Assembly (NCBI GenBank): GCA_017461385.1
Contig: JAFTXZ010000015.1
Coordinates: forward strand, 1 to 64,000
Direction of reading: 5' to 3'
Source: Clostridia bacterium
GTDB lineage: Bacteria > Bacillota > Clostridia > Oscillospirales > CAG-272
Length of the DNA stretch: 64,000 bases
The translations under genes were made by a program, and so were the position numbers. This document shows positions 2,172-46,850 of the stretch, one piece after another; positions within the stretch are counted from its first letter, which is position 1; each line of letters begins with the position of its first letter. A model generated the notes under the pieces. That model saw only the letters and a list, made by a program, of their open reading frames with translations, was not told the origin of the DNA and searched no databases.

Positions 2172-3179
2172 TTATTTTTTAACCTTTTTTATGGAAGCAA
2201 GAGGGTTATTGTCCATTGCGTCCTGCATACCTTTATTAGAAACGTGGGTATAAATTTGTGTTGTGTTTAACTGCTCATGCCCTAAAATTTCCTTCAGCAC
2301 TCTTACGTCAACCTTACCAGTCTGATACATAAGAGTAGCTGCGGTATGCCTTAGCTTGTGGGTAGAATAATGCTTGTAATCAAGACCAGCAAGCTCTAGG
2401 TATTTGTACACAAGCCATTGCACGGTTTTATTGCTTATGCGCTTGTATTGCTTGCTTATGAAAAGAGCATTTGTGCCCAGCTTCGAATATTTTTCGCTTT
2501 TTCTTATAATAAGATATGTAGTTAAGGCACTACGGCATGCATCGTTTAAGTAAACAATTCTTTCCTTGTTGCCCTTTCCTAAAACTCTAAGCGACCGTAG
2601 CTCCCTGTCAAGATCGTTTAGATTAATACCAACAAGCTCAGAAAGACGCATTCCACAGTTTAAGAAAAGAGTAATTATTGCATAATCCCTCTCAATGGTC
2701 TTTGATTCCTTGTCATTTTCAACAGCATTCAAAAGAGCAATGCTTTCCTCCATAGAAAGGAATTTTGGAAGAGATTGCTTTTTCTTTGGCGCTTCAATAT
2801 CAATTGCAGGATTCTTTTCCATTAAGCGACGCTTAGTGCAAACAAATTTGTAAAAGGCTTTGATAGCAGAAAGCTTTCTTGCCTTAGCTGAGGAATTATT
2901 TCCCCTCTCATTTGATAAATATATGAAGAAATCATAAATTTCCTCAGTGGAAATAGATGTGATAAAATCTGTGTCTAGGGTAGAAATGGAGAGCTTGTCA
3001 AAAAATTCCGATGGAATTTTAACACCAGTTCGCTTAGCATATATAAACTTGAAAAACAGTCTTAAATCTGATAGATACTCATCAATTGTTTTTTGGGAAC
3101 AGCCTTGAATAGTTAGCTTGTAGGCAGCAAAATCCTTAGCTAGCTGAGGCATTTGCTCCACTGGAAAGCGATGTGCCAT
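2172..3179 (-). CDS. Tyrosine recombinase, XerC/XerD type
   Basis: A 335-aa site-specific recombinase. The N-terminal SAM-like core-binding domain (about 10-120) contains QKTIDEYLSDLRLFFKF; the C-terminal catalytic domain carries Arg178 (GMRLSEL), Lys202 (GKGNKER), His274/Arg277 (HKLRHTAA), His301 (LGHEQ) and the nucleophile Tyr310 (TQIYTHV). It is slightly longer than typical XerC/D (~300 aa). The ATG at 3179 follows AGGAGG by 6 bases. No phage or element genes adjoin it, so a chromosomal housekeeping role (dimer resolution) is likelier than an integrase role; no dif-like site was identified. A possible extended -10 (TGGTAAAAT) lies at 3216-3224. Confidence 0.88.
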   Translation of the reverse strand: MAHRFPVEQMPQLAKDFAAYKLTIQGCSQKTIDEYLSDLRLFFKFIYAKRTGVKIPSEFFDKLSISTLDTDFITSISTEEIYDFFIYLSNERGNNSSAKARKLSAIKAFYKFVCTKRRLMEKNPAIDIEAPKKKQSLPKFLSMEESIALLNAVENDKESKTIERDYAIITLFLNCGMRLSELVGINLNDLDRELRSLRVLGKGNKERIVYLNDACRSALTTYLIIRKSEKYSKLGTNALFISKQYKRISNKTVQWLVYKYLELAGLDYKHYSTHKLRHTAATLMYQTGKVDVRVLKEILGHEQLNTTQIYTHVSNKGMQDAMDNNPLASIKKVKK

Positions 3180-3272
3180 ATACAACCTCCTTCAATAAAT
3201 ATGTATAACAAATATATTTTACCACATAAAAAGCATTTTTTGTATCAAATATATGAATTTTTTCAAACATTA

Positions 3273-45757: not shown

Positions 45758-45840
45758 GCGAGAGTGGCGGAATCGGCAGACGCGCACGTTTGAGGGGCGT
45801 GTGGGCAACCGTACGGGTTCAAGTCCCGTTTCTCGCACCA
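45758..45840 (+). tRNA. tRNA-Leu (anticodon GAG)
   Basis: An 83-nt type II tRNA. Acceptor arms GCGAGAG / TTCTCGC, the D-arm with GGCGGAATCGGCAGAC, anticodon stem CACGT / GCGTG with loop TTGAGGG (anticodon GAG, reading CUC/CUU), the long variable arm TGGGCAACCGT, T-arm ACGGG-TTCAAGT-CCCGT and an encoded CCA end. It is monocistronic with its own promoter and terminator. Confidence 0.97.
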
Positions 45841-45881
45841 ACAAAAAGAGAACTTTTGTCTACCAAAAGTTCTCTTTTTGT
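45841..45881 (+). terminator. Terminator of tRNA-Leu
   Basis: An 18-bp stem (ACAAAAAGAGAACTTTTG / CCAAAAGTTCTCTTTTTGT less one base) with a short loop. Hairpin array A begins in its 3' flank. Confidence 0.88.
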
Positions 45882-46063
45882 TTATCCAAGCCGCAGGCTT
45901 GGTATATCATCACGCTTTAGCGTGCATCTCATCAGCTCCTTTGGAGCTGTATATCATCACGGCATAGCCGTGCATACCCTATCCTGCGGCTTGATGATAT
46001 ACAACACTTCGTTTTGATGATATACCGCAACAAGTTGCGGATGAAATACAAGGCTACGCCTTG
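45881..46063. repeat. Hairpin array A (class 1, linker TATATCATC)
   Basis: Six perfect small hairpins: CCAAGCC-GCA-GGCTTGG (45886-45902), CACGC-TTTA-GCGTG (45911-45924), AGCTCC-TTT-GGAGCT (45934-45948), CACGGC-ATA-GCCGTG (45958-45972), CCGCAAC-AA-GTTGCGG (46025-46040) and CAAGGC-TAC-GCCTTG (46049-46063). The first half is joined by (G)TATATCATC-type linkers, the second half by the reverse complement GATGATATAC. CAAGCCGCAGG (45887-45897) can also pair with CCTGCGGCTTG (45983-45993) to enclose the inner hairpins. The first 79 bases recur at 46621. Confidence 0.9.
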
Positions 46064-46089
46064 ATTTATTTATGAAAGTGTGGTATAAT
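46061..46089 (+). promoter_or_regulatory. Promoter of the 46116 gene
   Basis: TTGATT (46061-46066, formed by the end of array A), 17-bp spacer, TATAAT (46084-46089) preceded by TGG (extended -10). Confidence 0.7.
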
Positions 46090-46115
46090 GTTTTTAGAGG
46101 GAGTGATATTAACCT

Positions 46116-46559
46116 ATGGAAAAATTGTATGCAGAGTTTCTTTTATGGTTAAACGAGCTGAATACAAATGAAAAATATGAATCGCTGTTACACAAATATT
46201 TTTTAAACGCTCCAAGCGATAAAGTTTTGCTTGAATTAGAGGAGTGTTCTTCGGATATACTCAGAACAAATGCTATATTAGAAAACTATTGGAACTCCGA
46301 GAATAAGATTTTAGATGCTGATGTATTTGGAGAACACTTATTCTCCGAGTTGGAATCTGTTTATAAATCCAACAAATTCGTCATTGAGGATTTCGGGAAG
46401 CGTTGTTATTCTCTGTGGGGATATTTACCACCACATTTAAAACAAAAAGAACCTTTCTGGACATTGAGTTATGCCGATGATTGCTTATCCTGGAATGACG
46501 AAGCACAAACGCGCAAACTATATGAAGAGGCATTCTCTTTTCATCGTCAGAAAAAATGA
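46116..46559 (+). CDS. Hypothetical protein between two hairpin arrays
   Basis: A 147-aa acidic, probably helical soluble protein that I do not recognise. It is rich in Glu, Leu and Trp; segments are EFLLWLNELNTNEKYE near the start, a central ENYWNSENKILDADVFGE, and a C-terminal LWGYLPPHLKQKEPFWTLSY. No metal, P-loop or membrane motif is visible. The style resembles small immunity or DUF proteins of accessory regions, a weak impression. GGGAGTG lies 12 bases before the ATG, long spacing. It has its own promoter and terminator, is flanked by near-identical repeat arrays and sits next to a tRNA, so it is likely a recent insertion. Confidence 0.7.
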   Translation: MEKLYAEFLLWLNELNTNEKYESLLHKYFLNAPSDKVLLELEECSSDILRTNAILENYWNSENKILDADVFGEHLFSELESVYKSNKFVIEDFGKRCYSLWGYLPPHLKQKEPFWTLSYADDCLSWNDEAQTRKLYEEAFSFHRQKK

Positions 46560-46589
46560 ACTGTATACACCTTTTTACTGCTCTTTCGC

Positions 46590-46623
46590 AAAAAAGTCGT
46601 ATCATTTCGATACGACTTTTTTT
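46590..46623 (+). terminator. Terminator of the 46116 gene
   Basis: AAAAAAGTCGTATC / GATACGACTTTTTT stem. Array B starts directly in its T run. Confidence 0.9.
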
Positions 46624-46710
46624 ATCCAAACCGCAGGTTTGGTATATCATCACGCTTTAGCGTGCATCTCATCAGCTCCCTTGGAGCTGTATATCATCAA
46701 CCAAAGGTTG
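46621..46710. repeat. Hairpin array B (class 1)
   Basis: Its first 79 bases (46621-46699) match 45881-45959 with three differences. Two of them change both partners of one base pair in the first hairpin (CCAAACC-GCA-GGTTTGG); the third lies in the loop of the third hairpin. The fourth hairpin differs altogether: CAACC-AAA-GGTTG (46698-46710). The array ends there, without the reversed half. Confidence 0.9.
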
Positions 46711-46786: not shown

Positions 46787-46850
46787 AAAAAAGGAGTTTT
46801 TGTAGTCAAAAACTCCTTTTTATCCGTTTTGAAAAGCAACGATATATCAT
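46787..46850 (+). terminator. Terminator followed by a decayed class 1 repeat
   Basis: AAAAAAGGAGTTTTTG / CAAAAACTCCTTTTT stem (46787-46821), then ATCC, an imperfect GTTTT/AAAAGC hairpin and TATATCAT (46843-46850), the class 1 linker. This fits a third, degraded array in the same position behind a terminator. Confidence 0.65.

Follow-up and report, generated by a model that had tools for sequence, protein, structure and literature searches.

Covarying hairpin arrays behind tRNA genes of Clostridia: candidate mobile cassettes with the S23 family as a probable partner

The window, by which we mean the whole 64,000-nucleotide stretch of Clostridia DNA analysed here, holds two short hairpin arrays of almost the same sequence behind a tRNA-Leu gene. 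The question it raises is what such arrays are, what keeps their stems paired and how they came to stand there. The preliminary description of this DNA had reported the near-identical pair 45881-45959 and 46621-46699, and we indeed observed exactly three differences over the 79 nt. Two of them, 45890 G/46630 A and 45898 C/46638 T, are partners in the first hairpin (CCAAGCCGCAGGCTTGG becoming CCAAACCGCAGGTTTGG), which bears out the compensatory change that had been proposed. The third, 45940 T/46680 C, is the first loop base of the third hairpin (AGCTCCTTTGGAGCT becoming AGCTCCCTTGGAGCT). The linkers are the same in both copies, again as reported, and the similarity reaches 83 nt at 95%. The word TATATCATCA occurs seven times in the window, compared with 0.28 expected from shuffles; one of the seven copies (33586) lies far off, in apparent coding sequence.

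The first copy begins 41 nt past the last base of the tRNA-Leu gene, downstream of that gene's terminator, and is the left half of a longer element whose inverted half continues to 46063 (Table 1). A promoter-like motif and an ORF stand between the two copies, and inspection by eye recognised no right half for the second. The hairpin arrays that had been described are real, but the copies are more than a pair of arrays: they have the appearance of two insertions that form a tandem anchored at the tRNA. Farther on, at 46788-46821, a perfect inverted repeat of 15 bp with runs of A and T resembles a terminator; it lies between the second array and a small gene downstream.

Table 1 Features of the tRNA-anchored tandem in the window
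Feature	Position	Strand	Remarks
tRNA-Leu (gag), array anchor	45758..45840	+	ARAGORN; Rfam tRNA 46.4 bits; CCA encoded, C75 = 45839, A76 = 45840
Cassette 1 (750 bp), starting at A76 and ending with the C that precedes terminator 2	45840..46589	+	Absent in genome G005
Terminator 1, 19-bp perfect inverted repeat, 5 nt between arms	45840..45882	+	
Hairpin H1, loop GCA	45886..45902	+	
Hairpin H2, loop TTTA	45912..45923	+	
Hairpin H3, loop TTT	45934..45948	+	
Hairpin H4, loop ATA	45959..45971	+	Fold centroids
Centre, reverse complement of H1 5' arm and loop; can form long-range helix P1	45983..45993	+	Fold centroids
Right half with inverted linkers; hairpins 46003-46015, 46025-46040 and 46049-46063	45994..46063	+	
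Promoter-like TTGATT-N17-TATAAT; -35 box overlaps last hairpin	46061..46089	+	
Cassette ORF, 147 aa	46116..46559	+	Without Pfam or NCBIfam match at E 0.001
Terminator 2, start of second element	46590..46622	+	Inverted repeat
Second left array: H1 46626-46642, H2 46652-46663, H3 46674-46688, H4-like 46699-46709	46626..46709	+	Right half not recognised

A common anatomy, that of a family we call HA, was derived from the window and 30 loci of the genus and three other genera; two of these loci (L018 and L031) are chance matches. The left part consists of a tRNA ending CC|A, a terminator stem starting at A76, the bases ATCC, H1, and then H2 to H4 with TATATCATC-type linkers. The centre is the reverse complement of the H1 5' arm and loop, and the right part has three hairpins with TGATGATATAC between them, which is the left linker inverted. 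Parsing showed that 60 of 67 full elements fit this scheme. Altogether 146 places passed a two-linker test and are counted here as HA elements; a few chance places are possible among them, L165 and L178 being doubtful. Two continuations are frequent after the last linker. In 33 of 110 elements it is a promoter-like TTGAYT-N16-18-TATAA, with its -35 box reaching into the last hairpin and an ORF downstream (the background is about 0.002 per stretch); in 12 of 110 it is a stretch with a T-arm-like motif. Cassettes also stand in tandem with foldable sites between them, as three elements at L042, two at L043 and two in the window.

Anchoring of HA to tRNA genes is well supported. A tRNA ends at most 50 nt upstream in 70 of the 146 elements, and 17 isotypes are represented; before the two-linker filter, a tRNA end 26-43 nt upstream was found for 73 of 175 deduplicated pattern places. 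Among 134 called junctions, CC precedes the terminator stem in 66 of the 69 that follow a tRNA, and in the 65 without a called tRNA, part of which are copies of tRNA 3' ends or tRNAs that ARAGORN did not call, the stem is preceded by C in 60 and has A as its first base in 62. The right ends may resemble tRNA as well. From the 65 junctions, 50 were kept after those that are tRNA-like or do not end in C were dropped, and merging of near-duplicates left 36. In these, positions -24 to -14 lean to the T-arm consensus, with NTC starting at -22 in 16; this likeness is only suggestive because some tRNA remnants remained in the set, and no clear T-arm motif was found at the right end of the window's cassette.

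Comparison between genomes captured what appears to be an insertion. In genome G005, the counterpart of the window's second array comes directly after tRNA-Leu(gag), whereas the window has the 750-bp cassette between the two, located between C75 and A76 of the tRNA. Among 28 parC loci of the same genus, a tRNA-Leu lies behind parC on the same strand in 12 within the stretch examined, and HA is present in three of these 12. Mobility of the HA cassettes appears well supported by genome comparison. The loci examined contain 22 direct repeats of a tRNA 3' end, 12-32 nt in length; three of them bound HA itself (L046 and L141, 21 nt; L206, 12 nt), and 16 bound other elements of 150-264 nt. Such other elements include those behind tRNA-Leu at L063, L066, L076, L085 and L087 (150-192 nt, bounded by repeats of 19-21 nt), several of which, judged by eye, have an inverted copy of their own tRNA's T-arm just past the terminator.

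The cargo of the elements draws attention to one protein family. Eleven of 77 ORFs behind HA (from 79, L155 and L183 being left out) belong to S23 (PF05635), and the next commonest family has four. S23 carried as HA cargo scores 70.4 bits against a cut-off of 33.8, and a profile of the HA-clade S23 matches PDB 2rld, an entry with five chains, at E 1.7e-30. In a gene search of 40 genomes, 20 of which had been chosen as HA carriers, S23 genes were present in 19 of the 20 carriers and in nine of the 20 non-carriers, and by eye, among the matches listed, S23 stands directly beside HA in at least 10 of the 20 carriers.

We further analysed the DNA upstream of S23 genes in general. The sample comprised 120 of the listed matches, 60 of them picked by hand with short and contig-end matches left out; 119 could be located and 116 had enough upstream DNA. 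The 103 control genes came from loci fetched for integrase, reverse transcriptase (RT) and Y1 in 20 genomes and are not random genes. A tRNA lies upstream of 46 of the 116 S23 genes and of none of the 103 controls, an array of repeated words upstream of 59 compared with 7, five or more perfect hairpins upstream of 54 compared with 5, and array and hairpins together upstream of 41 compared with 1. These counts use cut-offs of at least 6 for the word array and at least 5 for hairpins, which were raised after a looser first control. With at least 5 and at least 4, S23 genes gave 72, 66 and, for both, 53 of 116, compared with 132, 107 and 68 of 464 control ORFs from loci chosen for HA, and for 41% of the S23 stretches one or more of ten shuffles also gave an array of at least 5. 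A single switch separates the two linker orientations in 29 of the 41 S23 arrays, compared with 2.7 expected. No word array and no abundance of hairpins was found for 44 of the 116 genes (for example L227, L232, L311 and L312).

Reading of 30 S23 loci revealed a tRNA within 500 nt upstream in 14, and in 11 of these 14 a hairpin array was seen by eye between tRNA and gene, with linkers other than those of HA in all except L250. The window's own genome, which is 75% complete, has two S23 genes, neither of them seen beside a TATATCATC array; one stands behind tRNA-Glu with TATGG-type linkers, a kind that occurs elsewhere in that genome as well. Taken together, S23 is probably the partner of the arrays, as far as association in genomes can tell. 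Other repeat types occur as well. Three loci on different contigs of the window's genome (L005, L007 and L008 on C1, C26 and C13) carry a second array family with the linker TATGGAATC/GATTCCATA, near TATATCATC arrays in L007 and L008, and a similar linker stands before the S23 gene L341. The S23 genes L246, L247, L251 and L340 lie behind short CACTCTTCACTTTTCAC-like repeats that are arranged in inverted sets and include few hairpins, and L227, L228, L234, L254 and L255 lie behind short near-tandem repeats such as GAAATTAGAAATGA or GGAGTTAGGATACA.

To what extent the hairpins are kept as a fold was addressed with an alignment (A3) of 47 elements, chosen from 60 non-redundant ones plus the window, in which covariation was measured by pair counting against shuffles. 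In the hairpin stems, 95.0% of 1493 cells pair, compared with 72.3% after shuffling and 22-40% with the partners slid, and 303 cells are changed on both sides compared with 91; neither the pairing share nor the double-change count was reached in any of 500 shuffles. Changes on both sides were found in 23 of 32 pairs (18.9 in shuffles), and one-sided standard changes are few. Hairpin scores fell when arms were swapped between elements, for example from 5.8 to 2.3 for H3 and from 5.4 to 3.7 for H2. For the long-range helix P1, which H1 and the centre can form, 96.7% of 329 cells pair, compared with 79.2% after shuffling, and 43 cells are changed on both sides compared with 11, although the shuffles reach as many doubly changed pairs (3) and as many pair types (6). 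The preliminary description had named covariation in a larger alignment as the check on its single base-pair change. With pair counting in place of R-scape, the 47 elements did not contradict the proposed covariation. The pattern is a large one, from which the pair of copies in the window is a small sample.

The same description had suggested selection on a folded RNA or single-stranded DNA. The covariation of stems is indeed strong, but selection on the fold is not proven by it, because both arms could also be changed at once when a template switch corrects an imperfect palindrome or when entire hairpins are swapped. An explanation by these two processes, with the arrays as passive debris of tRNA-targeted insertions, would fit the 303 double-changed cells with their few one-sided counterparts, the identical hairpin words that recur at several places in different elements, and the presence of other small tRNA-bounded elements in the same genomes. 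We nevertheless consider it unlikely in view of the fixed architecture, with 60 of 67 elements parsed, the covariation of the long-range P1, the rules of loop type and linker orientation, and the strong link to S23 genes.

Whether DNA or RNA is the acting form can be approached through the kinds of base pair. A structure kept as RNA should tolerate G.U more than A.C, and the stem cells of A3 contain G.U in only 14 cases (0.9%) and A.C or C.A in 10, which favours DNA over RNA. By comparison, G.U makes up 178 of 2100 cells in the stems of 175 distinct tRNAs, being 66 of 1225 (5.4%) in the acceptor and 112 of 875 (12.8%) in the T-stem. The loops point the same way by a strand rule: left hairpins have GN(N)A loops on the plus strand in 45 of 99 distinct cases, and right hairpins have them on the minus strand, which is there the linker strand, in 25 of 45, whereas TN(N)C loops occur on the linker strand in one of the 99 left and none of the 45 right hairpins. 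The hairpin C(GNA)G is exceptionally stable as DNA. In the S23 arrays the plus strand has GN(N)A in 42 and TN(N)C in 54 of 271 hairpins, which is what one expects of two inverted halves. The same G.U pattern would result if palindromes were repaired by template switching, so these observations are no proof, and we put moderate trust in DNA as the putative acting form of HA arrays.

It could still be argued that the array is a structured RNA leader or trailer, made by read-through of the terminator and bound by S23 in the way Avd acts in diversity-generating retroelements, with mobility incidental. Folding is stronger than in shuffles for RNA (z -9.7) as well as for DNA (z -11.7), and the RNA fold shows P1 and a three-hairpin structure. 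At L341 the array runs into the ribosome-binding site of the S23 gene, and inspection by eye found no promoter between them. In the available part of PMC10053308, Avd is described as resembling PF05635. This explanation seems improbable to us all the same, given the rarity of G.U, which is no commoner than A.C and far below its share in either tRNA stem, the GN(N)A loops of right halves on the minus strand, the terminator between tRNA and array, the presence of RT (PF00078) in only 2 of 13 carriers, and an Rfam search of the window and nine loci that matched tRNA and no other structured RNA family at the gathering score.

Candidate enzymes for the movement of the cassettes were compared between 13 carriers and 7 non-carriers, defined by the HA start pattern in draft genomes. 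Tyrosine recombinases (PF00589, the whole family and not the IntI subfamily) are present in 12 of 13 carriers and 7 of 7 non-carriers, and HA linkers stood beside none of the 30 such loci read. No integrase was found in the 25 listed of the 73 families matched by the 77 cargo ORFs. A tyrosine recombinase gene (337 aa) is located in the window at 2172-3185 on the minus strand. Reverse transcriptase (PF00078), found in 4 of 7 non-carriers, showed no association with HA and was rejected as mover, although one acting in trans or one outside this family may take part; two overlapping RT loci of one genome (L291 and L294, G410 contig C45) contain two HA-linker-like words on the minus strand, which may be chance. 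Cas1 was likewise rejected, PF01867 being present in 0 of 13 carriers and 1 of 7 non-carriers of these draft genomes. In these 20 draft genomes a strand-transfer enzyme was thus not found among the tyrosine recombinase, RT, Y1 and Cas1 families.

Y1 transposases bear on a further explanation, by which the arrays would be a repeat of the REP/BIME type spread by a RAYT or IS200-type enzyme acting on the hairpins. REP, BIME and REPIN repeats with their RAYT enzymes consist of oriented hairpin units in inverted sets with many copies per genome, and the HA units are similarly oriented and lie in two inverted sets. Unlike those systems, HA is anchored at tRNA ends and has cargo ORFs. Y1_Tnp shows no association with it either (8 of 13 carriers, 4 of 7 non-carriers, HA linkers in none of 12 loci read); we rejected Y1 as mover and hold this explanation to be very improbable.

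The distribution of the family is patchy. Across the order, its start pattern was found in 51 of 394 genomes, distributed over 30 of the 168 genera, and a reversed pattern gave none among the same 394 genomes. A scan of named genomes revealed at least 117 stretches with the pattern. Elements of the 146 are held by 62 of the 80 loci listed from it, which are named as Clostridia, Oscillospiraceae, Ruminococcaceae, Clostridiaceae or as genera within them, ruminant hindgut being the source of many; the scan's matches in Treponema and Rhodospirillaceae are not among the element-bearing loci. Between two different families (L014 and L030), the HA element agrees at 205 of 215 aligned positions, compared with 45 of 93 in the preceding tRNA stretch. 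Viral contigs gave 17 pattern matches, with further linkers only in L102, L105 and L108. L102 and L105, from two IMG/VR datasets, both show the 3' half of a tRNA-Pro followed by HA near the contig end (150-400 in L102). They are identical over the 1261 bases of the shorter stretch, the contig of L105 starting at the same base, and the longer contig, that of L102, has portal and major head PHROG matches. HA on this phage-like contig may be a vehicle of spread or the flank of a prophage. One HA element compared with named phage and plasmid collections gave no match.

Several known systems share features with HA. Integrons carry single-gene cassettes head to tail at an anchor, with foldable palindromic sites that vary in sequence and keep their structure, the attC core being GTTRRRY. 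HA cassettes are similar in their single genes in tandem, the foldable sites between them and the anchor site. Unlike integrons, the HA anchor is any of many tRNA genes, the array precedes the ORF, the junction is C|A and not a GTTRRRY core, 33 of 110 elements bring their own promoter-like motif, and HA stands beside none of the 30 tyrosine recombinase loci read. Casposons integrate at tRNA 3' ends with target duplication; HA has the same target, but no Cas1 was found in the 13 carriers searched. Integrative elements and satellites that use a tyrosine integrase also target the tRNA 3' end, and its direct repeats occur in part of the HA cases. In contrast to them, one closely similar HA family stands behind 17 isotypes, insertion at C75|A76 leaves the tRNA intact, direct repeats are found at three HA copies only, and the listed cargo families (25 of 73) include no integrase.

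Closest in protein content are the intervening sequences of 23S rRNA, which, in the available part of PMC4990558, share with HA the S23 family, a stable RNA gene as target, strong palindromes and a sporadic distribution. HA differs from them in lying behind tRNA genes or other cassettes and not inside 23S rRNA, and in its multi-hairpin arrays and varied cargo. The function of S23 and of these intervening sequences is described as unknown in the text available of PMC4990558 (2016) and PMC11270868 (2024), and the word tRNA is absent from the main text of both in the form available. Two further findings are relevant: the X. campestris relative is a homopentamer (PMC4990558), and 18 S23 genes were noted at cas loci (PMC3936711). 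A literature search for these arrays, or for S23 beside tRNA genes, found none among its best matches; it covered mainly openly accessible text, and an earlier description is possible.

We therefore propose, with somewhat better than even confidence, that these are small mobile cassettes behind tRNA genes, whose DNA hairpin arrays serve as protein sites and whose probable partner is S23. A cassette would comprise a terminator, the left array, a centre pairing with H1, the inverted right array and a right end, in some cases with a promoter and a single ORF before that end. Insertion would take place either at the C75|A76 junction of a tRNA gene or next to a cassette already present, behind its right end; the tRNA would remain intact, and cassettes would come to follow one another head to tail. 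In its probable acting form the array is folded DNA, single-stranded or cruciform, to which a protein is predicted to bind. The likeliest partner of the array would be S23, a four-helix bundle that is the commonest cargo seen and often stands behind arrays built alike with a linker of their own; cassettes without S23 would be moved in trans. For strand transfer our best guess is a tyrosine recombinase, encoded either by the host or by a phage or integrative element that occupies the same tRNA. The anatomy, the covariation, the tRNA anchoring, the junction position, the patchy spread of near-identical copies and the S23 linkage are read from genome sequences, and from them we infer DNA as the acting form, S23 as binder and mobility in trans.

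A broader proposal is possible, and we offer it tentatively. Arrays of this kind may be bound by S23 proteins throughout a large class of tRNA-anchored mobile cassettes that has gone unrecognised, each S23 lineage having its own linker (TATATCATC, TATGGMATC, GTGAAG, GTGATATT, GTGATGTT and others) and acting as a pentamer on hairpins of single-stranded or cruciform DNA. Unrelated genes would pile up by integron-like capture, and the intervening sequences of rRNA genes would then be related elements that target a different stable RNA gene.

If the cassette reading is true, gut Clostridia would collect single genes behind their tRNA genes in an integron-like manner, without a detectable link to Cas1, RT or Y1, the families tested. 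In the available part of PMC4990558, a role of the intervening-sequence ORF in mobility is an early proposal only. With hairpin arrays of lineage-specific linkers as genomic partner and C75|A76 as address, the question of what S23 does would become testable.
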